A stretch of DNA of 64,000 nucleotides from Paenirhodobacter populi (GTDB lineage: Bacteria > Pseudomonadota > Alphaproteobacteria > Rhodobacterales > Rhodobacteraceae). The notes under the pieces are model-generated. The model saw only the letters and a list, made by a program, of their open reading frames with translations, had not been told where the DNA came from and ran no database searches. The position numbers and the translations under genes were made by a program. Position 1 is the first letter of the stretch. Each line of letters starts with the position of its first letter. The stretch covers positions 124,001-188,000 of the forward strand of contig NZ_SAUZ01000004.1 in assembly GCF_004022215.1 (NCBI RefSeq), given 5' to 3'. This document shows, piece after piece, positions 19,152 to 45,506 of the stretch.

Positions 19152-20330
19152 GTGAGCGAGCAGGGTTCAGCCCGATTCAAAGCATATTCTGGGCGCCTCT
19201 CCAGGGCGCTGCAAGACCATTCGCGTGAAGCATTTCCGCCTGACGCTCAGAAGACGCTCCGGCGCTTCTCGATGCGCGAGGCGGCAGAGTTCATTCGGGT
19301 GAACCAGAATACATTCCGCCACTACATCACGACAATGGCAGAACGCATCCCGGTTGGCGAACTGGACAAGAGCAACCGTCGCTACTTCAGCGCCAGCGAA
19401 TTCCACGAAATCCAACGGGTTCTTTTCGAAGAAGGCAAGATCCGCCCAGAACACTACCCGCGCCGCCGCGCGGGCGAAAAGTGTCAGGTCGTCACCTGTT
19501 TCAACCTGAAAGGCGGGGTCTCGAAGACATCGACGGCCACCCACCTTGCCGAGATCCTTGCACTGCGAGGGTATCGGGTTTTGGCCATAGATCTCGATGC
19601 GCAGTCATCGATGACGAACATGTTCGGGATCACACCCGAACTCGCGCCCGACATGCCGTCTGCCTACGACGTCATCCGCTACACTGACCCCCTCCCCTGC
19701 CGGGATGCGATCCGTAAGACTTACTTTCCGAACATCGACCTCCTGCCCGGCTCGATGGACGTGATCGAATTCGAATACGAAACCGCGCTGTCGTTCCGGA
19801 CCCCGGACAGCTCCAAGCCGTTCCATGGCCGACTGGCAGATGCCATTGATCAGGTTCAGCAGGATTACGACGTCGTCATCTTCGACACTCCACCGCAAAT
19901 GAGCTTCGCGGTCATCGCAGCCTTGTTCGCATCTACAGGCGTTCTGATTCCGCTGAACGCGTCGATGCTCGACGCCATGTCGCTGGCGAGCTTCCTTGGG
20001 CTGGCAAGCGAGCTCATGGGCGTTGTCGAGCAGCATGCGCCAGACCACAGCTTCGACTTTATCAAGTTCCTGATCACTCGCTATGAGGCGACGGACCAAC
20101 CGCAGGTCCAGATGGCCGGATTCCTGAGAACCGTACTCGGCACCGCAGTGATGAGCACGGAGTTCGTTAAATCTACGGCGATCGGCGATGCGGCGAACAC
20201 CAAGCAACCTGTGTTTGAGATCGAACCCCGGGATGTGAACAAAAAGACCTATGACCGGGTGATTGAAGCCATTGGTCGGATCGCAGACGAACTTGAAGCC
20301 GAGTTCATGAAGTCCTGGGGGCGCAGCTGA
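19152..20330 (+). CDS. repA: RepA, plasmid partitioning ParA-type ATPase of repABC
   Basis: 392 residues from a GTG at 19152, chosen because GAGG lies 6 bases upstream; ATG at 19140 is an alternative and the frame is open to 19026. The N-terminal helix-turn-helix (FSMREAAEFIRVNQNTFRHYI) binds the rep operator. The Walker-type motif is NLKGGVSKTSTATHLAEIL, followed by LAIDLDAQSS and VIFDTPPQM. ParA/RepA ATPases move plasmid copies and repress the operon. The stop overlaps repB by one base. Gene order repA-repB-gap-repC is that of repABC replicons. Confidence 0.95.
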   Translation: MSEQGSARFKAYSGRLSRALQDHSREAFPPDAQKTLRRFSMREAAEFIRVNQNTFRHYITTMAERIPVGELDKSNRRYFSASEFHEIQRVLFEEGKIRPEHYPRRRAGEKCQVVTCFNLKGGVSKTSTATHLAEILALRGYRVLAIDLDAQSSMTNMFGITPELAPDMPSAYDVIRYTDPLPCRDAIRKTYFPNIDLLPGSMDVIEFEYETALSFRTPDSSKPFHGRLADAIDQVQQDYDVVIFDTPPQMSFAVIAALFASTGVLIPLNASMLDAMSLASFLGLASELMGVVEQHAPDHSFDFIKFLITRYEATDQPQVQMAGFLRTVLGTAVMSTEFVKSTAIGDAANTKQPVFEIEPRDVNKKTYDRVIEAIGRIADELEAEFMKSWGRS

Positions 20331-21259
20331 TGGCCCGCAAAGGAATTTTTGGAAACTCGTTGAAGAACGCGCTCGAAGGAAAGTTCGATGAGCCGGAAGA
20401 CGATACCCCCCTGCCCCGTCGTTCCAGTCCAAACATGGCGCGAGCGGAGGCATCTCTGAAAGAAGAAGATCGGCGCGCAACGCGGCTGGTCAGTCCCACA
20501 CTCATCCATGCCTCGCGTTTCAGCGACCGGATTGACGCCTCCGAGGATCTCAGTGATCTGATCGAGTCCATCCGGCAGCATGGTCAGCAAGTGCCAATCC
20601 TGTTGCGTCGGCTCGACAATGGCGACCTGGAGGTCGTCTATGGCCGTCGCCGCGTGCTGGCTTGCAAGGCACTGGGCATCGATGTCCGCGCTTCAGTCAT
20701 GGAGATGACTGAGGAAGAGGCATTAATTGCGCAGGGCGTCGAGAACAACCAGCGCCTTGATACCTCGTTCATCGAGAAGGCGCTCTTCATCACCCGAATT
20801 CTCGATGCAGGTTTCAAGGGCGTTGTTGTCCATCGTGCCACAGGAGTGAACGACACCCTCATCTACAAGATGAAGGCCATCGTCTCAGCCATTCCCGAAA
20901 ACATCATCCGGGCTATTGGACCGGCGCATGGAGCCGGTCGCCGCCAATGGGAAGCCTTGGCGGCCTTCTGTCGTTCTGCCAAACCTGCGGAGCTTCGACG
21001 TGTAGAGCAGGCAATCGGTTCAGCACAGGCATCATCGAGCCCTGAACGCCTCGAGCTAGCGATTACGGCGACAGTAGCGAAAGCCAATAGCGGTCAAGAG
21101 CTCAGCAGTCTGGTGCCCGGCCGCATAATCGCAACAGCGTCCGCGAAGAAGATAACGCTGTCAGCGGTCAACGTGCAGGATCAGCCATTCCTCTCCTATC
21201 TCAGCGAACGCATCCCCGCATTGTTGCAAGAATGGGAAGAACGAAAGGCGAGAGATTGA
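20330..21259 (+). CDS. repB: RepB, ParB-type centromere-binding protein of repABC
   Basis: 309 residues. ParB N-terminal domain: LSDLIESIRQHGQQVPILLRR, VYGRRRVLACKALGI and IAQGVENNQRLDTSFIEKA; then a KorB/ParB helix-turn-helix region near VHRATGVNDTLIYKMKAI. It binds parS sites and is moved by RepA. The start overlaps the repA stop (TGATG). The palindromic candidate parS sites lie immediately downstream. Confidence 0.95.
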   Translation: MARKGIFGNSLKNALEGKFDEPEDDTPLPRRSSPNMARAEASLKEEDRRATRLVSPTLIHASRFSDRIDASEDLSDLIESIRQHGQQVPILLRRLDNGDLEVVYGRRRVLACKALGIDVRASVMEMTEEEALIAQGVENNQRLDTSFIEKALFITRILDAGFKGVVVHRATGVNDTLIYKMKAIVSAIPENIIRAIGPAHGAGRRQWEALAAFCRSAKPAELRRVEQAIGSAQASSSPERLELAITATVAKANSGQELSSLVPGRIIATASAKKITLSAVNVQDQPFLSYLSERIPALLQEWEERKARD

Positions 21260-21304
21260 TGATTATCTTCTTAAATCAATGCATTGCGCCCCGGTTTCAC
21301 GCCA

Positions 21305-21324
21305 AACCTGACCGCGGTCAGGTT
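21305..21324. promoter_or_regulatory. parS-like palindrome 1
   Basis: AACCTGACCGCGGTCAGGTT, a perfect 20-bp palindrome 45 bp after repB. Position and copy number fit the RepB-binding centromere of a repABC plasmid. The core GACCGCGGTC recurs nearby. Confidence 0.7.
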
Positions 21325-21362
21325 ATGAAAGCGTGCGCCAGAGTAGAGAGCGCATACTGAAT

Positions 21363-21378
21363 CCTGACCGCGGTCAGG
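21363..21378. promoter_or_regulatory. parS-like palindrome 2
   Basis: CCTGACCGCGGTCAGG, a perfect 16-bp palindrome, 56 bp from the first (centre to centre). Together they form a likely two-site centromere in the repB-repC gap. Confidence 0.7.
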
Positions 21379-21409
21379 TTCTATAGAGCCCCTTCTCAAC
21401 TGGGGCGAA

Positions 21410-21560
21410 CACGAGGCAGTCAGAGCAAAAAGGAGCAGACTTCAGGCAAAAAGAAACCCCCCGAAAGCGGTGAGCTAACGAAGGGTCCCTGTAACATAAG
21501 CACTTACTAGGTACCCCAAAAAACGAATCAGCGCAACACCGATTTCGGTGAACGGACCTA
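21410..21560 (-). ncRNA. Candidate antisense countertranscribed RNA in the repB-repC gap
   Basis: In known repABC plasmids the repB-repC spacer encodes an antisense RNA that limits RepC. Here the spacer (21260-21579) contains a perfect hairpin CACCGATTTCGGTG at 21539-21552 and a C6/G6 tract near 21456-21470 followed, on the minus strand, by TTTCTTTTT. No clear promoter was identified, so the RNA and its limits are inference from gene order plus these hairpins. Confidence 0.35.
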
Positions 21561-21579
21561 GTTTGCCGTCTGAAATCGC

Positions 21580-22791
21580 ATGAAACACATCACATCCACG
21601 GCCCTTGCGGCCGGGGCACAGGAGATCTGTGCCGAATCCGCGGAGCGCTCGCTCCCCGGCATGGGTTCGATCACCCTGCAGCCAGCATTCCGACCGATCT
21701 CTCGTCGTGACATCATGGCCGCGGTCAACACATGCAGCCGCGATCTCGGCATTCGGCAAGGTGCGGTGGTCGTTCTTGACGCTCTCCTGAGCTGCCTGCC
21801 CTGCCAGGGCGTGGATGGTCGCGAGACACCGGTCTCTCCGACCACCCTGCTCACGGTCTATGCCAGCAACGAAACCCTGTGCTTCCGCGCCAGGGGCCTC
21901 ACCGACCGTCAACTGCGTCGGCATCTTGAGACGCTGGAGACCGCCGGGCTTATCCGCCGCCGTGACAGCGCAAATGGCAAGCGCTTCCCTGTGATGCAGC
22001 ACGGCAAACCAATCGGCGCCTTCGGGCTGGACCTGTCCCCCCTCTTCGCGCAGTCCGACGAGCTACTCGCCCTTGCCCTGCGCCGACGCGAAGAAGCAGA
22101 CGAGTTGCGCGGGCTGCGGGCACAGATCCTCAGACTTCGCGCGGCCTGCGCCGAACTCCAGCTAAGCGACGCTGTCGCCACCTTCATTGACGGGCTGCGA
22201 AACCTCGTGCGGCGTATCTCGCTGACCCTCATTGAGGCTCGGGAAGCTCTCTCGCAACTGACCGCGGTCCTCTCGTCACATGCAGCCCCACAAGCAGTAG
22301 TCCATTACGAAGTCGAAGAGGTTGAGCAGCGCCTGCCCTCCAATGCCGAAGCCGCTAACACTATATCCTGCGCGGAGACCACCATGGACCGCGCCCCAGA
22401 CCGAGCGGTCCCCAAAACCTTTCAGGCTCTCACCGCAGAAACCTGCGGCCTGCCGCCAACCGAGCAAAAGCCCGCCTCTGACGGACGGAATGTCCGCCAC
22501 ATAGAGCAAGACTCAGATACAAAAAAAAGAAAGAGGAAAGATGCGACGCTTCCAAGTTGGGCTGCCCTGGCGGAGGTCAGCGCTTTCTATGCCGAGCCCA
22601 CTAGCGCCCAAGAGGCCACACGCATCGCTTTCGAATTCGGGAAGATGCTGAGAATAAGCCAGGACATCCTCGCCAGCGCAGCGAGCAAGCTCGGGCTTTG
22701 GGAACTTCTCAGCCTTGAAAACCGCATGGCAAAGCAGATCGGAACCATCATCAACCCTGATGCCTATGTGAGATCCGTCCTACGAGTGTGA
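21580..22791 (+). CDS. repC: RepC, replication initiator of repABC
   Basis: 403 residues. Winged-helix regions typical of RepC: RQGAVVVLDALLSCLP, TLLTVYASNETLCFRARGLTDRQLRRHLETLETAGLIRRRDSANGKRF. The C-terminal part contains TLPSWAALAEVSAFYA and LRISQDILASAASKLG. An AT-rich, purine-rich stretch at about 22512-22545, coding for KKRKRKD, probably lies in the replication origin, which in this family is inside repC. One GACCGCGGTC core (22260-22269) lies within the gene. Confidence 0.93.
   Translation: MKHITSTALAAGAQEICAESAERSLPGMGSITLQPAFRPISRRDIMAAVNTCSRDLGIRQGAVVVLDALLSCLPCQGVDGRETPVSPTTLLTVYASNETLCFRARGLTDRQLRRHLETLETAGLIRRRDSANGKRFPVMQHGKPIGAFGLDLSPLFAQSDELLALALRRREEADELRGLRAQILRLRAACAELQLSDAVATFIDGLRNLVRRISLTLIEAREALSQLTAVLSSHAAPQAVVHYEVEEVEQRLPSNAEAANTISCAETTMDRAPDRAVPKTFQALTAETCGLPPTEQKPASDGRNVRHIEQDSDTKKRKRKDATLPSWAALAEVSAFYAEPTSAQEATRIAFEFGKMLRISQDILASAASKLGLWELLSLENRMAKQIGTIINPDAYVRSVLRV
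22260..22269. promoter_or_regulatory. GACCGCGGTC core inside repC
   Basis: The 10-bp core of the parS-like palindromes, without the outer arms, inside the repC coding region. It could be a weak extra RepB site or chance in GC-rich DNA. Confidence 0.4.
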
Positions 22792-22854: not shown

Positions 22855-22869
22855 GTTCGTTGATTGTTC
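22855..22869. promoter_or_regulatory. LexA (SOS) box, GTTC-N7-GTTC
   Basis: GTTCGTTGATTGTTC matches the alphaproteobacterial LexA consensus exactly. It lies 28 bp upstream of the SRAP start and should place the SRAP-imuA-imuB-dnaE2 operon under SOS control. Confidence 0.88.
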
Positions 22870-22897: not shown

Positions 22898-23578
22898 ATG
22901 TGCAACCTTTACGCCCAGACGAAAAGCCAGGACGCGATGCGTCAGGTCTTTCGTGACGTGCTGAAAGAGGATGAGGAACTGATCGATACCGCAGGCAACC
23001 TGGCACCTGCTCCCGGCATCTTTCCCGACTACGCTGCGCCAATCATTCACCGCAGTGAAGGGCGGGATTGGACACTGACTACGGCTCGATGGGGTATGCC
23101 GACGCCACCCGTTTATCTGGCCGGCAAACGCATGGACCCCGGCGTGACGAACATCCGCAATGTCAGCTCGCCCCATTGGCGCAGATGGCTCGGGATCGAA
23201 CACCGCTGCCTCGTTCCCTTCACCAGCTTTTCCGAACTCGACGCCCGACCCGGCGCACCTCGCAACAACCCGGTCTGGTTTGCCCTTGGCCAGGATCGAC
23301 CACTCGCCTTCTTCGCCGGCATTCGCACCGAATGGACCTCGGTCAGAAAGCTGAAGGAGGGCGAGGTGACAGCTGAACTCTTCGGATTTCTGACCTGCGA
23401 AGCCAACACAGAGGTCCTCCCGGTGCATCCCAAAGCCATGCCGGTGATCCTCACCCGGCCGGACGAATGGCGGTGCTGGCTGACTGCGGACATGAGCGAG
23501 GCCCTGAGGCTCCAACGGCCACTGGCGAATGGGCTTCTCGAAATAGTCGCGGAGGGCACACGTGCGGACCCTGTGTGA
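22898..23578 (+). CDS. SOS response-associated peptidase (SRAP/YedK/HMCES family)
   Basis: 226 residues from the ATG at 22898, so that Cys2 follows the initiator Met directly (MCNLY), as required: removal of Met exposes the Cys that crosslinks abasic sites. Other family marks: NLAPAPG, NIRNVSSPHW, RCLVPFTSFSE (catalytic Glu) and VHPKAMPVIL (His). It protects abasic sites in single-stranded DNA from error-prone repair or cleavage. First gene of an SOS operon; its end overlaps imuA by 17 bp. Confidence 0.92.
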   Translation: MCNLYAQTKSQDAMRQVFRDVLKEDEELIDTAGNLAPAPGIFPDYAAPIIHRSEGRDWTLTTARWGMPTPPVYLAGKRMDPGVTNIRNVSSPHWRRWLGIEHRCLVPFTSFSELDARPGAPRNNPVWFALGQDRPLAFFAGIRTEWTSVRKLKEGEVTAELFGFLTCEANTEVLPVHPKAMPVILTRPDEWRCWLTADMSEALRLQRPLANGLLEIVAEGTRADPV

Positions 23579-24161
23579 CCGGGTACACGCCGGAAGTGAT
23601 GATCCGCTTCATCTGCTGAAGGGCCGCGTACACGAAGTCGAAGGACGAGGCAAAAACGGCTTTGCCTTGTTTCAGGCTGCAAGATTGGCGGGACCGGTCT
23701 TCTGGATCGTGTTGGCGCATGATCGTGATCGGCCAATGCCAGCAGCCTTGCCGTATAGCGTAGCCGAGCGATTGCATTTCATCGAAGCACGCAACGAGAC
23801 CGATCTGCTCTGGTCTGTCGAAGAAGCGCTGAGGGCGCGGCCGGTGTCTCTGGTCATCGCGGCTCCGGAAAAGCCCATCTCGCTGACCGCGGCCAGGCGC
23901 CTCCAGCTGGCGGCCGAGGCCGGGGGCACCACTGGCCTGATGCTGATTCAGGAGGGCAGGGGGAGCAATGCCGCCGAGACCCGCTGGAAATGTGATCCGC
24001 TGCCGTCACCTCTGGACTCGACTCGTCATCGCTGGATCCTTAATAAGAACAAAAGAGGAACAACCGGAATCTATGATGTGAGCTGGAATGGCACGACGGC
24101 TGCTGTGCATCTGGTTCCCCAGGCTGGCGAGCGACATCAGCCTGAGGGCCCGCCCCGTTGA
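23562..24161 (+). CDS. imuA: ImuA-like mutagenesis protein
   Basis: 199 residues from a GTG at 23562 overlapping the SRAP gene. It has a degenerate RecA-like core: VHEVEGRGKNGFALFQAARLAGPVFWIVLA, then LHFIEARNETDLLWSVEEALRARPVSLVIA and SLTAARRLQLAAEAGGTTGLML. ImuA links the ImuB-DnaE2 translesion polymerase to RecA-like activity. It ends inside the ImuB reading frame (74-bp overlap). A C-terminal stretch rich in N, K and T departs from the usual pattern. Call rests strongly on position between SRAP and imuB. Confidence 0.82.
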   Translation: MRTLCDRVHAGSDDPLHLLKGRVHEVEGRGKNGFALFQAARLAGPVFWIVLAHDRDRPMPAALPYSVAERLHFIEARNETDLLWSVEEALRARPVSLVIAAPEKPISLTAARRLQLAAEAGGTTGLMLIQEGRGSNAAETRWKCDPLPSPLDSTRHRWILNKNKRGTTGIYDVSWNGTTAAVHLVPQAGERHQPEGPPR

Positions 24162-25563
24162 GGGGCCTTTCGCGTTGACGCTCCGGGCGTCGAACGCGGA
24201 ACATCTGCATTGTCTGAACACCATCGCAAGCGCCGCCGGGCTTCATCGCGGCATGCCGCTGGCCGATGCGCGTGCCGTCTGTCCAGTGCTCTCCACGCGG
24301 CCAGCTGATCTGATCCGGGAGGGCAGGGCGCTCGAAGGTCTGCGCAGATGGGCGAGCCGTTACGGACCACATGCCGCGAAAGACGGATCGGATGGCTTGA
24401 TCGTTGACGTCTCGGGCGTGCCGCATCTGTTCGGCGGTGAGCCAGAGCTTCTGGCCGATCTTGAGGCGCGGCTTGAGAGGGCAGGGGTCTCCTCGAAAAG
24501 TGCCATAGCCGAAACCCGCAGTGGAGCCTGGGCTCTTGCCCGCCGTGGCGGCGGCGTGATCCCGGAAGGCGGGTTGCTCTCTCGGCTTGGCCCGATGCCG
24601 GTCAGCGCGCTGCGGATTGAGGCTCCGGTCGCCGAAGGTCTGACCCGCCTTGGGCTGCACAAGATCGTCGACCTGACCACCGTCGCTCGGGCGCCACTGG
24701 CGCGCCGGTTTGGCGCCGACCTCCTGCGCCGTCTGGATCAGGCGCTCGGGACGCAAGCCGAGCCGGTGGCGGCAGAAGCGGATGCGCCGCATTTCGGAGT
24801 GCGGATGACGCTGCCCGAACCGATCGGGCTCACGGCGGATGTCATGGGCGTACTCGACCGGCTGCTCGTGCGGCTTTGCGACAAGCTGGCATCGGCCCAG
24901 ATGGGGGCGCGGGCTGTCCGGCTGGAACTGCAGCGCGTGGATCGCTCTGCCGCTGTCGTCGATGTGGGTCTCGCTCGCGCAATGCGCGACCCGGTCCGGA
25001 TCTCGGCCTTGTTCTTCAAGGGAGTGGATGAGGTCGATTCCGGATTCGGGATCGACGGTCTGCGCCTGACCGCTGCAGTGACCGAGCCTCTTGCACCTGA
25101 GCAAATCGGCAACGTGCAAGCGCGGGCCGAGGATGAACTTTCCGACCTGATCTCCCGGATCGGCAACCGGCTCGGCTTCGATGCGGTGCAGCGTTTCCTG
25201 CCGGCAAGCAGCCGCATTCCAGAGCGCAGCTTCCTGACCGTTCCGGCCGCCTATGCGGCACCGGGGCCGTTTCCGCCAAAGCGCCGTCCCCGCCGTCCCA
25301 TCACCCTCTTCCCGGCGGAAGCCCTGGCCCAGGTCTCTGGCAGCCCACCCGCCCGGTTCAGCTGGCGGCGGATGGGCTTCACCACCCTGCGTGCACATGG
25401 CCCGGAACGGATCACCCCGGAATGGTGGTTCGATGATCCGGCGTGGCGCAGTGGTGTCCGCGACTATTGGCGGATCGAGACCAATGAAGGGCCGCGGCTC
25501 TGGCTCTTCCGCACGCCACAGTCGGGATCTCGGGACTGGTATGCGCAGGGGGTGTTCCTGTGA
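24088..25563 (+). CDS. imuB: ImuB, Y-family polymerase-like translesion factor
   Basis: 491 residues beginning MARRLLCIWFPRLASDI, typical of ImuB. It carries the Y-family fold (TIASAAGLHRGMPLADARAVCP, GLIVDVSGVPHLFGGEPELL, ARSGAWALARRG) but lacks the catalytic acidic set of DinB, as known for ImuB, which acts as an adaptor binding the beta clamp and DnaE2. The stop overlaps the dnaE2 start (GTGA), implying coupled translation. SOS-inducible via the box at 22855. Confidence 0.92.
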   Translation: MARRLLCIWFPRLASDISLRARPVEGPFALTLRASNAEHLHCLNTIASAAGLHRGMPLADARAVCPVLSTRPADLIREGRALEGLRRWASRYGPHAAKDGSDGLIVDVSGVPHLFGGEPELLADLEARLERAGVSSKSAIAETRSGAWALARRGGGVIPEGGLLSRLGPMPVSALRIEAPVAEGLTRLGLHKIVDLTTVARAPLARRFGADLLRRLDQALGTQAEPVAAEADAPHFGVRMTLPEPIGLTADVMGVLDRLLVRLCDKLASAQMGARAVRLELQRVDRSAAVVDVGLARAMRDPVRISALFFKGVDEVDSGFGIDGLRLTAAVTEPLAPEQIGNVQARAEDELSDLISRIGNRLGFDAVQRFLPASSRIPERSFLTVPAAYAAPGPFPPKRRPRRPITLFPAEALAQVSGSPPARFSWRRMGFTTLRAHGPERITPEWWFDDPAWRSGVRDYWRIETNEGPRLWLFRTPQSGSRDWYAQGVFL

Positions 25564-28500
25564 CCGCCTATGCCGAGCTTTGCGTCACCTCGAACTTCAC
25601 CTTCCTGCGCGGTGCCTCGCATCCCGAGGAACTGGTGAAGCGTGCGGCCGAGCTGGGCCTCACCGCCATCGCCATCACCGATCGTAACTCGGTTGCCGGG
25701 GTGGTACGGGCGTTTTCGGCGCTGAAGGAACTCGCGCGCATCGCGGAGGAAGCGGGGCAGGGGACTTCTCTGCCCCGGCTGATCCCCGGCGCTCGCCTCT
25801 TGCTGACCGACAGCAAGGTGGAATGGATCGCGCTGCCCACCGATCTGGCAGCCTGGTCACGGCTGACGCGGCTCTTGTCGCTCGGCAAGCGGCGCGCCGA
25901 AAAGGGCAGCTGCCATATCGGCCTCGCCGATCTCGAGGAGTGGGGCAGGGGGATGGTGCTGATCGCTCTGCCGCCAGATCCGCTGGAAGCGACGGGCTTC
26001 GAGCGGGATCTGCGCCGGATCGCTGCCCGCTTTGCCGGCCAGTGCTTCCTTGGCGCGGCCCCCCGCTATGACGGGCAGGATCAGGAGCGGCTGGACCGGC
26101 TGGCGGAGATTTCTCAGGCGACCGGCATGCCCAAGGTTGCGGTCGGCGATGTGCTGATGCACCGCTCCAGCCGGCGGCCCCTCGCCGATGTGCTGACCTG
26201 CATCCGCGAGGGTTGCACCATAGACAATATCGGTGACCGGCGGCTTGCGAATGGTGAGCATCGTCTCAAATCCGGCGAAGAACTGGCTCGCATCTTTCAC
26301 CGCTATCCGGCCGCGCTGCGCCGCACGGTCGAGATCGCCGACCGCTGTGCTTTCCGCATGGATCAGCTGCGCTACCAATATCCTGATGAGGCCCGAGACG
26401 GGGAAGCTGCTCAGTCCCGCCTTGAGCGGCTGGCGCGTGAGGGGCTGCACTGGCGCTATCCGGGCGGGCCGCCGCCGAAGATCGTCTCCCGTGTCGAGAA
26501 GGAGCTGCGCCTGATCGCCGAGGTGGAATATGCGCCCTATTTCCTGACCGTCTATGACATCGTCAGCTTTGCGCGCTCGAAAGGGATCCTCTGTCAGGGC
26601 CGGGGATCGGCGGCGAACTCCGTCGTCTGCTACCTGCTCGGTATCACCGAGGTGCCGCCCGAGAGCATCACGCTGATTTTTGAGCGCTTCATCTCGAAAG
26701 AACGCGGTGAGCCGCCAGATATCGATGTTGATTTCGAGCACGAGCGCCGCGAAGAGGTGATCCAGTGGATCTACGAGCGCTACACCCGCGAGCGCGCTGG
26801 CCTGACCGCTGTAGTGATCCACTTCCGCTCCCGTGCCGCGATCCGCGAAGTCGGCAAGGTCATGGGGTTGAGCCAGGATGTGATCGCCCGGCTTGCAGGG
26901 CAGATCTGGGGCTGGTCCTCCTCGGCCCCCGGCGAGGACCGCTTGCGCGAGGCGGGCCTCAGCCCCGAGGACAACCGTGTGGCCCTGGCCGTGAAGCTGA
27001 TTGGCGAGATCATCGGCTTCCCCCGGCACCTGTCGCAGCATGTCGGCGGTTTCGTCATCACCCAAGGCAGACTGGACGAGCTCTGCCCCATCGAGAACGC
27101 CACGATGGAGGACCGCACCGTCATTGAATGGGACAAGGACGATATCGACGCGCTTGGCCTCTTGAAGGTGGATATCCTCGCGCTCGGGATGCTGACTGCG
27201 ATCCGCAAGGCCTTTGGTCTGATCGAGGATCACCGGGCCGAGCATCTGACGCTTGCGAACATCCCGCCCGAAGACGGCCGGGTCTATGATATGCTTTGCA
27301 AGGCGGATGCGATCGGTGTGTTTCAGGTTGAAAGCCGGGCGCAGCTGAACTTCCTGCCCCGGATGAAGCCTCGGAAATTCTATGACCTGGTCTGCGAGGT
27401 CGCCATAGTCCGGCCCGGGCCGATCCAGGGCGGCATGGTTCATCCCTTCATCAATCGCCGGCAGGGCAGGGGGAAGGTCGAGGATCTGGGCCCCGCCATG
27501 ATGGAAGTGCTGGGCCGCACCTATGGCGTGCCGCTCTTCCAGGAACAGGCGATGCAGATCGCCGTGGTCGCGGCAGGGTTCACGCCCGCCGAGGCCGACC
27601 GGCTGCGCCGCTCGCTCGCCACCTTCAAACGGATGGGCACCATTGGTGGCTTCCGGGACCGCTTTGTCGGTGGCATGCTGGAACGCGGCTATGATGCGGA
27701 GTTCGCGGCGCGCTGCTTTGCCCAGATCGAGGGCTTCGGCAGCTATGGCTTTCCCGAAAGCCACGCCGCCAGCTTCGCGCGGCTGGTCTATGTCTCGGCC
27801 TGGCTGAAACGCCATCATCAGGCGATCTTTACCTGCGCGCTGCTGAATGCCCAGCCGATGGGATTCTACGCACCTGCGCAACTGGTGCGCGATGCCCGCG
27901 ATCACGGTGTCGAGGTTCGGCCGGTTTCGGTCAATGACTCGATCTGGGATTGCACGATCGAACCCCGGGCCGATGGCTCGCACGCGTTGCGGCTCGGCTT
28001 TCGGCAGGTGAAGGGAATGCGCGAGGAAGATGCCATCTGGATCAAGGCCGCGCGCGGCAACGGCTATCCCGATGTCGAAAGTGTCTGGCGCCGCGCAGGG
28101 CTCAGGCCCGATGCGCTGGATCGGCTGGCCGAGGCGGATGGCTTTGCCAGCCTTGGCCTCTCGCGGCGCGATGCGCTCTGGCAGGCCAAAGCTCTGAAAG
28201 CACCAAAACCGCTGCCGCTGTTCGGGCTGGATGGGGAAGGCGAGCACGAGCCACTGGTCGATCTGCCCCGGATGACGCTCGGTCAGGAGGTCATCGAGGA
28301 CTATCTGGCGCTGCGCCTGTCGCTCCGGGCTCATCCCCTTGAGATCCTGCGCCCGAACCTGCCGGAGAGCATGCCTGCGGGGGCAGTATTGCAGGCGAAG
28401 GGCCGGATCCACCTCACGGGCCTGGTCATCACCCGGCAGCGCCCGGGTACCGCCTCGGGCGTGGTCTTCCTCACGCTCGAGGACGAGACTGGCACCGCGA

Positions 28501-28787
28501 ATGTCGTGGTGTGGAAGAAGGTCTATGAGGCGTTCCGCGCCGCCGTGGTCGCCGGACGGCTCTTGCGGGTGACGGGCCGGATCGAGCGCGACGGGCAGGT
28601 GACCCATCTGATCGCCGAATGCATCGAGGATCTGTCAGCGCGGCTTTCCACCATCGGGCACCAGTTGCGGATCGGGGCCGAGACCGAGAGGGCAGGGGAG
28701 TCCGTCAGGCCCATCCGCACAGCCGGTAGGGCGCGGCACCCCAGAGAGCAGGCGAAGAAGCTCTTCCCGAGCCGGGATTTTCATTAA
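25560..28787 (+). CDS. dnaE2: DnaE2, error-prone DNA polymerase III alpha subunit
   Basis: 1075 residues, the usual DnaE2 length, from a GTG at 25560. N-terminal PHP domain: CVTSNFTFLRGASHPEEL and AIAITDRNSVAGVVRA. The polymerase core includes CQGRGSAANSVVCYLLGI and PDIDVDFEHERREEVIQWIY (catalytic Asp residues), then FQEQAMQIAVVAAGFTPAEADRLRR. A C-terminal OB fold lies near LTGLVITRQRPGTASGVVFLTLEDETG. It performs damage-induced mutagenesis with ImuA and ImuB. Intact throughout. Confidence 0.95.
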   Translation: MTAYAELCVTSNFTFLRGASHPEELVKRAAELGLTAIAITDRNSVAGVVRAFSALKELARIAEEAGQGTSLPRLIPGARLLLTDSKVEWIALPTDLAAWSRLTRLLSLGKRRAEKGSCHIGLADLEEWGRGMVLIALPPDPLEATGFERDLRRIAARFAGQCFLGAAPRYDGQDQERLDRLAEISQATGMPKVAVGDVLMHRSSRRPLADVLTCIREGCTIDNIGDRRLANGEHRLKSGEELARIFHRYPAALRRTVEIADRCAFRMDQLRYQYPDEARDGEAAQSRLERLAREGLHWRYPGGPPPKIVSRVEKELRLIAEVEYAPYFLTVYDIVSFARSKGILCQGRGSAANSVVCYLLGITEVPPESITLIFERFISKERGEPPDIDVDFEHERREEVIQWIYERYTRERAGLTAVVIHFRSRAAIREVGKVMGLSQDVIARLAGQIWGWSSSAPGEDRLREAGLSPEDNRVALAVKLIGEIIGFPRHLSQHVGGFVITQGRLDELCPIENATMEDRTVIEWDKDDIDALGLLKVDILALGMLTAIRKAFGLIEDHRAEHLTLANIPPEDGRVYDMLCKADAIGVFQVESRAQLNFLPRMKPRKFYDLVCEVAIVRPGPIQGGMVHPFINRRQGRGKVEDLGPAMMEVLGRTYGVPLFQEQAMQIAVVAAGFTPAEADRLRRSLATFKRMGTIGGFRDRFVGGMLERGYDAEFAARCFAQIEGFGSYGFPESHAASFARLVYVSAWLKRHHQAIFTCALLNAQPMGFYAPAQLVRDARDHGVEVRPVSVNDSIWDCTIEPRADGSHALRLGFRQVKGMREEDAIWIKAARGNGYPDVESVWRRAGLRPDALDRLAEADGFASLGLSRRDALWQAKALKAPKPLPLFGLDGEGEHEPLVDLPRMTLGQEVIEDYLALRLSLRAHPLEILRPNLPESMPAGAVLQAKGRIHLTGLVITRQRPGTASGVVFLTLEDETGTANVVVWKKVYEAFRAAVVAGRLLRVTGRIERDGQVTHLIAECIEDLSARLSTIGHQLRIGAETERAGESVRPIRTAGRARHPREQAKKLFPSRDFH

Positions 28788-40786: not shown

Positions 40787-41506
40787 CTATTCACGCCATG
40801 AAACTGTGGAGAGAGAACGATCAAGTGACGAAGCGGTTCCCACGGATGACGTCGGGTCGGTCCGGAGAGGCAGGAAACCGCAGACCCGCGCGGCAGCAGC
40901 TATATCCTCAGTCAGCTCCGCCCGGCGGCGCATCTTTGTCCCGGTATCGGTCTGGCGCAGAATACCGGATGGGTGCCACGAGATCAGCACCTGCCCGCCG
41001 TGAAGCCCCGTCTCGGTCTGCCCGCGACGGGGGCCGAGCGGTGCGTCATTTCCGGTCAGCGCGAAGGCCGCGGAAGCCCCGAGTGCCAGAACCATCCGCG
41101 GCCGGATAAAGGATAGTTCCAGCCCCAGCCACCAGCGACAATGCAGGATTTCCTGCCGGTCGGGGTTCTGGTGCAGTCGCTGTTTACCTCGCGGTGCGAA
41201 CTTGAAATGCTTCACCGCATTGGTCAGCCAGACCTGCCCGGCGTCGACCTGCGCCTCTGCCATGAGTACGCGCAGAAGCTGTCCGGCGGGGCCGACGAAT
41301 GGTCGGCCTTCCAGATCTTCGCGGTCGCCGGGTTGCTCTCCGACGATCATCAGACGTGCCGACGCGAGCCCTTCGCCCCAGACGGTCTGTGTTGCCGCCT
41401 CGCAGAGGCCACAGCGTCTGCATTGCAAGGCGGCCTCGCGCGCTTCACCCATTGTTTCCGGCCGTTCGGGCGCGGTTGGCATCGCGGCGCGGTAGCGGGT
41501 GGACAC
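40787..41506 (-). CDS. udgX: UdgX, uracil-DNA crosslinking glycosylase-like protein
   Basis: 239 residues from a GTG at 41506 with GGAG 8 bases upstream. QCRRCGLCEAATQTVWGEG supplies the Cys of the Fe-S cluster; GEQPGDREDLEGRPFVGPAG is motif A; KHFKFAPRGKQRLHQNP is the UdgX insertion with the His that bonds covalently to the abasic product; SWHPSGIL is the C-terminal motif. UdgX traps uracil in DNA. It is often fused to TIGR03915; here it overlaps that gene in another frame by 157 bp. Confidence 0.9.
   Translation of the reverse strand: MSTRYRAAMPTAPERPETMGEAREAALQCRRCGLCEAATQTVWGEGLASARLMIVGEQPGDREDLEGRPFVGPAGQLLRVLMAEAQVDAGQVWLTNAVKHFKFAPRGKQRLHQNPDRQEILHCRWWLGLELSFIRPRMVLALGASAAFALTGNDAPLGPRRGQTETGLHGGQVLISWHPSGILRQTDTGTKMRRRAELTEDIAAAARVCGFLPLRTDPTSSVGTASSLDRSLSTVSWRE
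40816..40840 (-). promoter_or_regulatory. EcfG-type promoter for the DUF883 gene
   Basis: Read on the minus strand: GGAAC (40840-40836), 16-bp spacer, CGTT (40819-40816). It lies 44 bp before the DUF883 start and within the udgX coding region. Confidence 0.65.
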
Positions 41507-42300
41507 GGCGGCTGCTCCAGGGCGGGGCAGGGGGTGGCCGCCGCTTCACGCATACGTTCTACCCGCGCCTCGGCATCTCGCAGCATATCCGGGATCAGGC
41601 GCGTCTCCGGCAGGTTCTTCCAGTATTTCTTCGGCATTTCCGAGCGCATCGCATCCAGCTTCACCCGTGACGGGTTAAAGATATTGGCGAAATAGGTGGC
41701 CCAGAGACTTTCTGAGGCATCTTCGGGCAGATCGGGCCGGGCGCCGCCGTTGTGAAAGGTCAACCGGCCGGCTTCGAACCGTGCGGTCAGGCCTGGCGTC
41801 GCAATCATCCAGTCCATATCCGCGAAGCGTTTGACGAAAAAAGAACTGCCGGGCTCCAGCGTGTCATGCTCTGGCTCAAACCAGGCAGCGAAGCGGCGCC
41901 GGCCCTCAGAGGGTAGTTCGCGGAAGCGCACGAAAGCATGCATCTTGTGGATGTCGCGCCCCACCGATTTCGCCATCAGGTTCAGGCGACGGCCCAGCGG
42001 ATCGGCCTGCGACAGCGGATCACCCTGCCGCCGGTCAAGCTGCCAGAGTGCCCGATAGAGAAGCGCTGTCCGTTCGGGCGCAGAATGCCAGATCACTGAT
42101 CCGGCGAGTTTCAGAAAACCTCCGGGCACACGCGTCTGATGGGGTCCGGGCGTATCGGGCAGGGGGGCTGCGGCGAATAATCCACCCCCACCGGTCCAAC
42201 TGATTTCGTCGGGCGGAATCCGGTGGCTGATCGCAATACGGGCAGCTTCGCGCCAGGCATCAAAGGTGCCGCGCCCGGGCAGTGTGACAGTATAGCTCAC
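41350..42300 (-). CDS. TIGR03915-type DNA metabolism protein
   Basis: 316 residues from a GTG at 42300 overlapping the stop of the radical SAM gene (GTGA). YRALWQLDRRQGDPLSQADPLGRRLNLMAKSVGRDIHKMHAFVRFRE and FEPEHDTLEPGSSFFVKRFADMDWMIATP fit the TIGR03915 family, always found with UdgX and the radical SAM partner. The last 50 residues are basic and Pro-rich and look like an out-of-frame reading of udgX, so either the gene is naturally overlapping or a frameshift has split a fused protein. Role: presumed repair, mechanism unknown. Confidence 0.82.
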   Translation of the reverse strand: MSYTVTLPGRGTFDAWREAARIAISHRIPPDEISWTGGGGLFAAAPLPDTPGPHQTRVPGGFLKLAGSVIWHSAPERTALLYRALWQLDRRQGDPLSQADPLGRRLNLMAKSVGRDIHKMHAFVRFRELPSEGRRRFAAWFEPEHDTLEPGSSFFVKRFADMDWMIATPGLTARFEAGRLTFHNGGARPDLPEDASESLWATYFANIFNPSRVKLDAMRSEMPKKYWKNLPETRLIPDMLRDAEARVERMREAAATPCPALEQPPCPPATAPRCQPRPNGRKQWVKRARPPCNADAVASARRQHRPSGAKGSRRHV

Positions 42301-43528
42301 AACAGGCTCAGTTGCTCTGGCGGCGGTGCAAACCGGGCGCGCAGATCTGCGCTGTCCGTCAGGCCGCCGGGGGACCAGCCGGGCAGGGTGATGAAGGGGC
42401 GGGCCTTTTTCATCAGCGCTCCCATTCGCACGAGGTCCTCGTAGCGCATGGATCGCGTCCGGCGTTCGGTGACGATGCGGTCCACGGTGCGGGTGCCGAA
42501 CCCCGGTACGCGTAGCAGCATGTCGCGTCCGGCACGGTTCACCTCGACGGGAAAAAGGCCGCGATGCTGCAGTGCCCACGCAAGTTTGGGATCGATCTCC
42601 AGATCGAGATGGCCCGCATTTGTGCCCGTCGCGATTTCCTCGGCGCTGAAGCCGTAGAAGCGCAAGAGCCAGTCGGCCTGATATAGTCTGTGTTCACGCA
42701 GCAAGGGTGGCTGAACCAGCGGCAGCACCGATGAGGCGTCAGGGATGGGGGAGAAGGCCGAGTAATAGACGCGCCGGAGCTTGTAGCCAGCGTAAAGCCG
42801 GGTCGAGCTTTTCAGGATCGTCACGTCATCGGTGCCGTCCGCGCCGATGATCATCTGCGTACTCTGCCCGGCGGGCGCGAAACGGGCAGGGCGTTTCCCG
42901 GTGTGGCTTCGCTCCTTTGCCGCCTCGCCTTCCAGACGCACCTGCGCCATGGCGGCGCGGATCGTCTCTGGCCGTTTCTCGGGAGCGAGCTGGCGGACAC
43001 TGGCATCCTGCGGCAGCTCGACGTTGATCGAGAGACGGTCGGCGTGGAGCCGGCTTCACGGATCAGGTCGGGTGAGGCATCCGGGATAGTCTTGAGATGG
43101 ATATAACCTCTGAACCCGTGGTTCTGGTGCAGGGTCCTGACGATGCGAACCATATCCGCCATGGTCTGATCGGGCGACCGGATGATGCCGGAGGACAGGA
43201 ACAAGCCCTCAATGTAGTTCCTGCGGTAGAATTCCAAAGTCAGCGTTACAACTTCGTCGACCGAGAAGCGCGCACGTTCGATGTTGGATGACACCCGATT
43301 GATGCAATAGGCGCAGTCGAAGATGCAGAAATTGGTCATCAGGATCTTCAGCAGGCTGATGCAGCGCCCGTCCGGCGTATAGGCGTGGCAGATGCCGCTG
43401 CCGCCGGAGGAGCCGATGCCGCCTTTACGGGAGTCGCGCTTCTCGCCCCCGCTTGACGCACAGGAGGCGTCATACTTTGCCGCATCCGAAAGGATCGCGA
43501 GTTTGTGCTGAAGCGTCGTTCTTGCCAT
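42297..43528 (-). pseudogene. TIGR03916-type radical SAM DNA repair protein, frameshifted
   Basis: The N-terminal part, from ATG at 43528, carries the radical SAM motif TNFCIFDCAYCINR (C-x3-C-x2-C) after CASSGGEKRDSRKGGIGSSGG, hallmarks of this UdgX-associated family. The frame is lost after DLIREAG: one base is missing near 43046-43053 (GGCTCCACGCC where GGCCTCC or similar is expected). The C-terminal part resumes in the next frame (MAQVRLEGEAAKERSHTGKR onward) through a helix-hairpin-helix-like VNRAGRDMLLRVPGFGTRTVDRI to the stop at 42297. It is either a real recent mutation or a sequencing error. It heads the SOS-boxed repair operon. Confidence 0.85.
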
Positions 43529-43543
43529 GCAGGGGGAATATAT

Positions 43544-43558
43544 GTTCATGAAATGTTC
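43544..43558. promoter_or_regulatory. LexA (SOS) box upstream of the radical SAM-UdgX operon
   Basis: GTTCATGAAATGTTC on the plus strand (GAAC-N7-GAAC on the coding strand), an exact match to the alphaproteobacterial LexA box, 15 bp upstream of the radical SAM start codon. Confidence 0.85.
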
Positions 43559-43884: not shown

Positions 43885-44346
43885 TTATGAGGTGGCCTCG
43901 TCTTTTCCTGCCAGATGGTGTTCCAGCTGCCGCAACAGTGCGATCAGCCTGCCAAAGCCATCCGAGCCGAGGGCCGAAAAGATTTCTACATTCCCGGTTT
44001 CGAGAATGCGTCCGACTTCGGGCATCAGATCGCGGCCCTTCTGCGAAAGCGCGAAAAGCGCCCTGCGACGATCGGCGCTGTCCGTCGTGCGAATAAGCAG
44101 CCCCTCTTTCACCATCCGGTCGAGCATCTGGGCCATGGCTGGCTGACCGATGCGGCCCATCTCGGCAAGCTCTTTCTGCGACAGATGCCCGGCAGCCTTC
44201 AGCGCCCCAAGCACGGGCATATACGCGACGTTGATGCCGAGCGGCGCCAGCCGTCGATCAAAGTCACGCGTGATCAGCCGCGCAACCTGGTTCAACAGGC
44301 GGCCTGGATTTCGATGCGAAGCGGCCTCATGCGTGAGTGAGGGCAT
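43885..44346 (-). CDS. MarR family transcriptional regulator
   Basis: 153 residues. Winged helix: INVAYMPVLGALKAAGHLSQKELAEMGRIGQPAMAQMLDRMVKEGLLIRT with wing TDSADRRRALFALS. It is divergent from a TetX-like monooxygenase gene and separated by a large inverted repeat that begins directly at its start codon, implying autorepression and control of the monooxygenase. Confidence 0.92.
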   Translation of the reverse strand: MPSLTHEAASHRNPGRLLNQVARLITRDFDRRLAPLGINVAYMPVLGALKAAGHLSQKELAEMGRIGQPAMAQMLDRMVKEGLLIRTTDSADRRRALFALSQKGRDLMPEVGRILETGNVEIFSALGSDGFGRLIALLRQLEHHLAGKDEATS

Positions 44347-44347
44347 T

Positions 44348-44386
44348 TACATTGGCTCCGATGTATTATATATCGGCCCCAATGTA
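44348..44386. promoter_or_regulatory. Long inverted repeat, probable MarR operator
   Basis: TACATTGGCTCCGAT (44348-44362), a 9-bp AT-rich centre (GTATTATAT) and ATCGGCCCCAATGTA (44372-44386): 15-bp arms with one mismatch. It covers the promoter region between the MarR and monooxygenase genes. Confidence 0.8.
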
Positions 44387-44408
44387 TCTCTGTGGGGGCT
44401 TCGGGGCA

Positions 44409-45506
44409 ATGTCCAGATCACTTCAGATCGCAATCGTCGGGGGCGGGCCAGGCGGGTTGACGGCGGCGATCATCCTGCACAGGCAGGGCCATCAGGTGCG
44501 GGTTTACGAGGCGGACCCCTCGGCCGATCACCGCAAGCAAGGTGGTACGCTCGATCTGCATGCGGACTCGGGCCAGTTGGCGCTTCACCGCGCCGGGCTG
44601 CTGGACAGTTTCCGGGCGATCGCACGCCATGAAGACCAGAACAGCACGGATATAGACCCGGTCACCGGTCAGGTGGAACAGACGCCGCCGCACCCGGAAG
44701 AGGACATGGACCGGCCCGAGATCGACCGAGGCCTTTTGCGACAGCTGCTGCTCGGGGCGCTTCCGCCTGGCTGCTTTATCTGGGGCGCGCGTCTCGATCA
44801 TGTCGAGATCGGCACGCAGGGCCGCCACACCATGGTATTTCAAAGCGGCGCGCGCGTTGAGGCCGATGTCGTGATCGGCGCTGACGGCGCATGGTCGCGT
44901 GTGCGCAAAGCTCTCACGCCTGTGGCTCCGTTCTACACCGGGGTCACGTTCCTTGAAGGCTGGATCGAGACCCCGACCCCCGCACAGACCGACCTTGTCG
45001 GTCATGGCTCGCTGTTTTCCTTCGGCGGGCCTGAGGCGGTTTTTGCCCAAAGGAACGGCGAAGGCCGGATCTGCGTCTATGCTGCCGTGCAAAGGCCGCA
45101 GGAATGGCTGAAAACACAGCTGGCACAGATGCCTGCGCCCGAGCTGGTGAGGCATATCTATCAGGGGTGGGCCGCGAACCTTCGCAGCCTTCTCGACGGC
45201 TGCGCGGCTTTCATCGAGCGGCCGATCTACAGCCTGCCGGCGGACTTCGGCTGGCAGGCGCATCCCGGCATTACGCTGATCGGAGATGCCGCGCATCTGA
45301 TGCCCCCGCTGGGGGTGGGCGTGAACCTTGCCATGCTTGATGCCACAGACCTTGCTGTCGCCATTGGCGATGGGTCGGACTGGCAAGAGGCGCTGCGGCA
45401 ATGCGAAATCTGCATCAGGGATCGCGCGCAATCCCATATGCGCGAAATCATCCCGGGCTTCACCGAATGGTTCGCGGGACCATCGCCCGTCCGCCAGCGC
45501 GCCTGA
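44409..45506 (+). CDS. FAD-dependent monooxygenase, TetX-like
   Basis: 365 residues from the ATG at 44409; upstream residues in the frame overlap the operator and are unlikely coding. IAIVGGGPGGLTAAIILHRQGH is the FAD Rossmann motif; GGTLDLHADSGQLALHRAGLL is close to the TetX signature; VVIGADGAWSRVR is the DG motif; LIGDAAHLMPPLGVGVNLAMLDA the GD motif. Group A flavoprotein hydroxylases of this type include tetracycline-inactivating enzymes, but substrates vary. The divergent MarR repressor suggests induction by an aromatic or drug-like ligand. Confidence 0.85.
   Translation: MSRSLQIAIVGGGPGGLTAAIILHRQGHQVRVYEADPSADHRKQGGTLDLHADSGQLALHRAGLLDSFRAIARHEDQNSTDIDPVTGQVEQTPPHPEEDMDRPEIDRGLLRQLLLGALPPGCFIWGARLDHVEIGTQGRHTMVFQSGARVEADVVIGADGAWSRVRKALTPVAPFYTGVTFLEGWIETPTPAQTDLVGHGSLFSFGGPEAVFAQRNGEGRICVYAAVQRPQEWLKTQLAQMPAPELVRHIYQGWAANLRSLLDGCAAFIERPIYSLPADFGWQAHPGITLIGDAAHLMPPLGVGVNLAMLDATDLAVAIGDGSDWQEALRQCEICIRDRAQSHMREIIPGFTEWFAGPSPVRQRA

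Follow-up and report, generated by a model that had tools for sequence, protein, structure and literature searches.

The question raised by this locus is whether a predicted LexA (SOS) box is a genuine operator and, if so, what it reveals about the operon that it precedes, which encodes a radical SAM protein, a TIGR03915 (DUF4130) domain and a UdgX domain, and to which the first-pass annotation assigned no established cellular role. The window, that is, the whole stretch of 64 kb of the Paenirhodobacter populi genome analyzed here, contains the box GAACATTTCATGAAC on the minus strand at 43544..43558 (the plus-strand letters at these positions are GTTCATGAAATGTTC), with a gap of 15 nt to the radical SAM start codon (ATG at 43528). 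The exact LexA box reported upstream of the operon in that annotation is thus indeed present, and it is recognized both by the exact match to the motif and by conservation before the operons of relatives.

The annotation regarded the exact match as such as strong evidence, and for the bare match this does not hold. There are 6 exact SOS-motif matches in the window compared to the approximately 1.8 expected (1.81 for the GAACN7GAAC form, with at least 6 in 0 of 100 shuffles, and 1.76 for the GTTCN7GTTC form, with at least 6 in 1 of 100), and the whole genome (4.78 Mb) contains 179 exact motifs compared to 63 for a reversed control pattern; simple arithmetic from the genome density gives a chance of about 0.002 for a motif to lie no more than 60 nt from any one chosen start codon. 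Given these numbers, the motif by itself counts for little, and the claim must rest on its context. The lexA gene of the same genome (G000:C23; 193 bits against a cut-off of 111 in the profile search) has two such boxes, GAACAACGGTAGAAC and GAACTTTAGGGGAAC, in its promoter, so that this form of the motif is the appropriate one for the strain.

A survey of other Alphaproteobacteria had been proposed, with absence of the box as the outcome that would speak against SOS control. Searches for the radical SAM family TIGR03916 yielded matches in 18 of 101 relatives (16 over the cut-off) and in 41 of 385 genomes of the class (24 over the cut-off), which combine into 37 distinct over-cut-off loci, the window apart. 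Matches under the cut-off were dropped (1 of the 18 and 16 of the 41 matching genomes, own genome apart, and 11 of 20 and 48 of 56 in two further TIGR03916 searches), as were the loci of duplicate genomes (L193, L195 and L216). Another scan covered the best 80 of 585 confirmed relatives, with lineages assigned from record titles; by these titles, 50 loci belong to Alphaproteobacteria. An exact box within -160 to +20 of the start of the radical SAM profile was identified in 83 of the resulting 87 alphaproteobacterial loci, a count made without correction for kinship, whereas the control rate, from stretches of equal length in the remainder of these loci, was 0.004 exact boxes per stretch. The 37 loci represent 27 genera by genus code, and the box is found in 26 of these. 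The outcome that would have spoken against SOS control thus did not arise. The box is also located before the operon, with the genes annotated whole, on plasmids of Paracoccus aminovorans (two strains) and, in its exact form, on plasmid 1 of P. denitrificans PD1222.

It is on the strength of its location and its conservation before orthologous operons that we judge the box to be real. The alternative is a chance match, given that GAACN7GAAC occurs every ~27 kb and some copies happen to lie before genes; the counts in the window and in the genome are in line with this explanation, and another exact match, at 24047-24061 inside the coding sequence of an imuA-like ORF, is probably a coincidence of this kind, but the recurrence of the box near the same place in nearly all orthologous loci, along with the same motif at the strain's own lexA, makes chance a highly improbable explanation for the box at the operon. 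The presence of the box before the same operon in most of the relatives examined implies that the operon belongs to the SOS response. From these sequence comparisons, it appears very probable that the box is a genuine LexA operator and that the operon is repressed by LexA and induced in the SOS response, the copy in the window being probably in decay on a repABC replicon.

The exact box is missing in four alphaproteobacterial loci (L023, L079, L094 and L121). The genome of the first of these (G258) has no LexA over the cut-off. The genomes of the other three encode LexA and carry the exact motif in their own lexA promoters, so that these loci count against universality of the box; L079 has a one-mismatch site at the operon. 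A motif-scan reading under which L023 also lacked DUF4130 was overturned by a homology search that detected this domain beside the radical SAM gene. Among the boxed promoters, the window included, 72 of 84 have the box in the GAAC orientation; the spacer is AT-rich, with ATATAGT as the commonest variant (11 of the 72 GAAC-oriented boxes). The gap from the box to the first in-frame ATG, GTG or TTG, where start codons were picked mechanically and the window with its 15 nt is outside the 83 loci, has a median of 5 nt and does not exceed 10 nt in 56 of the 83. Such short gaps in many relatives suggest that LexA would cover the -10 region and the start site of a transcript with no leader or almost none.

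The SOS link of the operon has already been published. We take COG4277 to be equivalent to TIGR03916. SOS control of the COG1573–COG4277 operon has been predicted in Bacteroidetes, and the same article cites earlier reports (da Rocha 2008, Erill 2016) on UDG-based repair under SOS control in Verrucomicrobia and Alphaproteobacteria and gives GTTC-N7-GTTC as the alphaproteobacterial LexA motif (PMC8565304). That operon is the same gene pair, a UDG-family protein and COG4277, under LexA; in that article, it is treated as a UDG base-excision system, and the words UdgX and DUF4130 do not occur in the text. Compared to this, the present analysis adds the DUF4130-UdgX fusion, the boxed operons that lack UdgX and the boxes in gamma- and betaproteobacteria; the copy in the window also differs in being frameshifted. 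The main text of a study of the Caulobacter SOS response (PMC12700426) contains neither the word "glycosylase" nor "radical SAM" and hence neither supports nor denies the SOS link of the operon.

Beyond the Alphaproteobacteria, the presence of the lineage motif both at the operon and at lexA of the same genomes suggests that the box tends to follow the LexA motif of the host lineage. In gamma- and betaproteobacteria, CTGTN8ACAG with at most one mismatch precedes the operon in 11 of 13 loci (8 exact and 3 with one mismatch; control 0.037) and is present in 5 of 6 lexA promoters. The two misses are Psychrobacter, where LexA has no match, and L194, from a genome (G727) that has LexA; in Salinisphaera, the operon has a box with one mismatch, and lexA has none. 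In the Verrucomicrobia phylum, GTTCN4GAAC is located before the operon in 5 of 11 loci (3 of 4 and 2 of 7 in two sets), with no control sites in these groups, and in its exact form in all 4 lexA promoters examined; the 5 misses in the second set come from two genomes with no LexA match, one with none over the cut-off and two with LexA just over the cut-off (L217 and L218). Among the 6 Bacteroidota loci, GGAN5TCC occurs three times at each of two, both from Flagellimonas, and CTAAN5TTAG once at each of another two; both are published Bacteroidetes motifs (PMC8565304). The alphaproteobacterial motif is found in none of the 41 loci of other groups and in 2 of 3 loci of uncertain class. Stray one-mismatch CTGTN8ACAG sites occur in 1 of 4 planctomycete loci, in the myxobacterial locus, in 1 of 6 Bacteroidota loci and in 3 of 87 alphaproteobacterial loci, and with the motifs tried, no lineage-typical box was detected in the 4 planctomycete loci or in the single bdellovibrional, acidobacterial and myxobacterial loci. 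Altogether, four lineage motifs (alpha, gamma/beta, Verrucomicrobia and Bacteroidota) are found at the operon, with perhaps a fifth one in xanthomonads (see below). Separately, a lower-scoring TIGR03916-like subfamily (260-296 bits), with an N-terminal DLACACG-like sequence, was noticed in genomes of the Verrucomicrobia phylum (L220-L241); GTTCN4GAAC was found in 1 of the 18 loci scanned among these 22, at -194.

The operon in the window differs from those of its relatives in gene structure. The radical SAM gene (TIGR03916) spans 42297..43528 on the minus strand, from the ATG at 43528 to the stop codon at 42297-42299, with a frameshift near 43046-43052. Its halves, which match profile positions 1-155 and 188-380 with 268 and 245 bits, lie in different frames; no single open frame exceeds the family cut-off of 343.5 bits, and the whole-genome search recovers two abutting halves at this locus. 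The change of frame is a one-base shift relative to the genes of P. denitrificans and P. aminovorans. The DUF4130 (TIGR03915) domain follows at 41518..42300 on the same strand, with a GTG start that overlaps the radical SAM stop codon, and scores 179.7 bits, above the cut-off of 112.25 (Pfam DUF4130, E 9e-36); its frame departs from the coding track near 41517-41542 and continues to 41350. The UdgX domain (TIGR03914; 40787..41515, minus strand) is in a separate frame (ORF 40787-41506). A tblastn search with a fused relative (L102) places the switch of frame between 41518 and 41515, and by eye, the shift near 41517-41542 was judged to be uncompensated in comparison with the unbroken genes of P. 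denitrificans and P. aminovorans. Among 117 loci, some of which are truncated before the gene in question would appear, homologues of DUF4130 and UdgX are present in 113 and 85, respectively. All 85 relatives with UdgX have it in one open frame with DUF4130, and the window alone has the two in different frames, which rules out an operon of three genes: the operon consists of two genes, one for the radical SAM protein and the other for a DUF4130-UdgX fusion. On plasmid II of P. aminovorans, whole genes are found in the same order, with the box in place. The operon named in the first-pass annotation is accordingly present, albeit as two genes, with UdgX fused in relatives and with both genes frameshifted here.

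The two frameshifts, which the first-pass annotation did not note, may leave the strain without a functional radical SAM or fusion protein. The box could then be real and bound and the operon nevertheless dead, with no more than the DUF4130 part and a UdgX made by re-initiation to be expected upon SOS induction. We rate this as moderately probable: both frame changes stand out against the intact Paracoccus genes, and long genes in the vicinity, among them those for a catalase (721 aa) and an error-prone polymerase (1075 aa), are each uninterrupted, which speaks against an assembly of poor quality overall. On the other side, the assembly is in 91 contigs, such that errors are possible, and the preservation of the DUF4130 domain and of the motifs of UdgX points to no more than a recent loss. 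Recent decay of this copy is likeliest, with assembly error as a possibility.

The genomic context offers additional indications of the history of this copy. A repB gene (over the cut-off) and a RepC-like gene (below the cut-off), at 20330-22791, precede a gene of the SRAP (HMCES/YedK) family at 22898-23578 (Pfam SRAP, 72.9 bits), and on this basis, the window is probably part of a repABC replicon. The SRAP gene has a LexA-type box of its own, the second exact one in the window (22855-22869), 28 nt before its ATG, and on a plasmid of Haematobacter massiliensis, the same box precedes the SRAP gene. SRAP proteins become covalently bound at abasic sites; in this respect they resemble UdgX, which belongs to a different family. 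The SRAP gene is followed at 23562-28787 by imuA-, imuB- and dnaE2-like genes, namely, an ImuA-like ORF (40.5 bits, under the curated cut-off of 150), an ORF for a Y-family polymerase presumed to be ImuB and an error-prone DnaE-type polymerase; this SOS mutagenesis cassette ends ~12 kb from the operon. On the Haematobacter plasmid (L299, 5132-6414), the Y-family polymerase region is annotated as separate short pieces, and in the window it is one open frame.

DNA similar to parts of the window is found on Haematobacter, Paracoccus and Ketogulonicigenium plasmids, and the nearest plasmid DNA relatives of the operon are those of P. aminovorans, with the same order catalase–UdgX–radical SAM. Full-length TIGR03916 is present in 7 of the 17 congeners searched, and UdgX is absent in all 7, which suggests that the copy in the window arrived by transfer. 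With respect to phage carriage, the searches produced just two short, weak DNA matches, both in unannotated records. Beside the operon (43885-45506), a gene for a MarR-family regulator diverges from one for a FAD-dependent monooxygenase that scores far under the curated cut-offs of all 25 families listed.

The UdgX domain in the window is well preserved. It scores 260.4 bits with TIGR03914 (cut-off 189.95), its solved relatives include UdgX structures (best E 6e-45), and it retains the GEQPGD, KQRLH and HPSGILR motifs, which correspond to motif A, the R-loop with the cross-linking His, and motif B; the GEQPG, R-loop and HPS motifs are shared with Mycobacterium smegmatis UdgX and relatives (6ail, 6iod), whereas here the domain is C-terminal to DUF4130 and encoded in an SOS operon. 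At the position of the cross-linking His, 80 of 86 UdgX sequences, the window included, have H; 6 of the 86 are short fragments. In the fusion protein of Paracoccus shandongensis (L102), motif A of the UdgX domain reads GEAPGD instead of GEQPGD, and KRRIH is kept.

Nevertheless, the box is not specific to UdgX. Thirteen alphaproteobacterial operons (L004, L005, L007, L008, L009, L011, L013, L014, L021 and L026–L029) that encode the radical SAM protein and DUF4130 and lack the UdgX domain keep the exact box; in these, the DUF4130 frame continues for just 32–87 residues past the domain, which leaves no room for UdgX. Since the loci represent 4 genera (7 from the genus of the window, and 3, 2 and 1 from the others), they are not 13 independent cases. 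The conserved SOS unit accordingly comprises the radical SAM protein and DUF4130. The proposal of the first-pass annotation that UdgX and its partners act in the DNA-damage response fares well inasmuch as the operon is linked to LexA, and less well in placing UdgX at the center; the box shows regulation rather than protein function.

UdgX could still be the point of the SOS link, as a uracil trap under damage with the radical SAM protein and DUF4130 as helpers. The frequency of the UdgX domain among the loci and the near-invariance of the cross-linking His fit such an arrangement, and so does the proposal, in PMC10359453, that UdgX protects AP sites under stress, with RecA-dependent resolution of UdgX-DNA complexes; however, given that the operons without UdgX keep the box, even if they are not independent, we find this arrangement unlikely and prefer the radical SAM-DUF4130 pair as the core. 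The same source describes the physiological role of UdgX as largely unknown (PMC10359453), and according to PMC10776899, UdgX cross-links when it excises the uracil itself and does not cross-link to a ready-made AP site. In both articles, the words "SOS" and "operon" are absent. The literature searches returned bare single mentions of UdgX alongside SOS and nothing that combines UdgX with radical SAM, and the articles within their reach do not seem to state explicitly that the glycosylase of the SOS operon is UdgX. Work on SOS regulons and work on the chemistry of UdgX thus seem not to have met, and joining them tells when UdgX is likely to be made, namely, during DNA damage.

The radical SAM protein contains the CX3CX2C motif in its first half, as CIFDCAYC, and its three cysteines are invariant across all 50 relatives aligned. 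Three further cysteines outside the motif are conserved in 50, 45 and 45 of the 50, which is compatible with a possible additional iron-sulphur cluster. A sequence near the C terminus, LLRVPGFG, presumably fits a helix-hairpin-helix. Sequence search identified no solved relatives of this protein. The structural model of a relative (L006; pLDDT 89) has a radical SAM barrel near those of HydE and lipoyl synthase (Z ~18) and also of biotin synthase, a ranking that shows the shared barrel only. A likeness to spore photoproduct lyase was considered and dropped, there being no such entry among the 50 matches listed.

DUF4130 is almost unstudied, its name being scarce in the literature searched and its TIGR names not found there; according to PMC3765255, it is associated with SplB-like proteins of the radical SAM type and with uracil-DNA glycosylases. 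The search for solved relatives by sequence gave one chance-level match (E 0.76). The structural model of the domain is confident (pLDDT 94), and its best fold matches are PAP phosphatase (Z 8.4; rmsd 5.7, 182 residues) and, next to it, RecJ (Z 7.8; rmsd 4.0, 176 residues). We assume that these two, like most of the other fold neighbors listed, belong to the DHH/DHHA1 superfamily (RecJ, Cdc45). Foldseek with the same model and a fold search of the viral library gave no match at E 0.001 or better. The profile comparison gave no signal for a kinship of DUF4130 with RecJ by sequence (hhalign probability 0.2%, with only 12 RecJ sequences). The Z values may reflect merely a common arrangement, and a DHH/RecJ-like fold for DUF4130 is a possible lead rather than a finding.

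The motif, its position, its conservation and the lineage-matched change of motif are directly observed, and from these we infer occupancy of the box by LexA and induction in the strain. In undamaged cells, LexA on the box would cover the end of the promoter, in many relatives up to the start codon, and keep the operon off; upon DNA damage, activated RecA would trigger self-cleavage of LexA, and with the loss of LexA, the two genes, for the radical SAM protein and the DUF4130-UdgX fusion, would be switched on within the SOS response. The likeliest role of the products, as judged from family, fold and context, which also provide the basis for the putative chemistry of the radical SAM protein and DUF4130, is a damage-induced step of base repair or base protection. 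The radical SAM protein, with its probable DNA-binding helix-hairpin-helix tail, and DUF4130 would jointly act on a base that is damaged or modified, and UdgX, an optional addition to this core unit, would, where present, excise uracil, stay covalently bound and shield the abasic site. In the window, with both genes frameshifted, the operon is probably decaying, unless the shifts are assembly errors.

A broader interpretation, which we put forward tentatively and consider somewhat less than evenly probable, is that the radical SAM-DUF4130 pair is a general SOS effector under the LexA motif of each host, boxless in some hosts that lack a full LexA, with UdgX as an add-on. Under this interpretation, DUF4130 would represent a reduced form of the DHH/DHHA1 (RecJ/Cdc45-like) module, one that binds nucleic acids and offers damaged DNA to a base-modifying radical SAM enzyme, possibly with an extra cluster.

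In Xanthomonadaceae, GTCTCAN5TGAGAC precedes the operon in 3 of 3 loci (L080, L084 and L096) and also in the gammaproteobacterial locus L191, which was left out of this count because grouping it by its Stenotrophomonas-like promoter would be circular. The sequence is present in 41 of 60 genomes of the family, with 1-7 copies per genome where present and none for a reversed control, and differs from the motifs of the lexA promoters in three such genomes. Among 36 loci with the site (L185-L190 and L254-L283), taken one per genome for all but six, 12 have it before a gene for a DEAD-box helicase, 6 before the radical SAM gene, and single sites lie before genes that, by eye, resemble recA and uvrA; GTCTCAN5TGAGAC is possibly an uncharacterized DNA-repair box.
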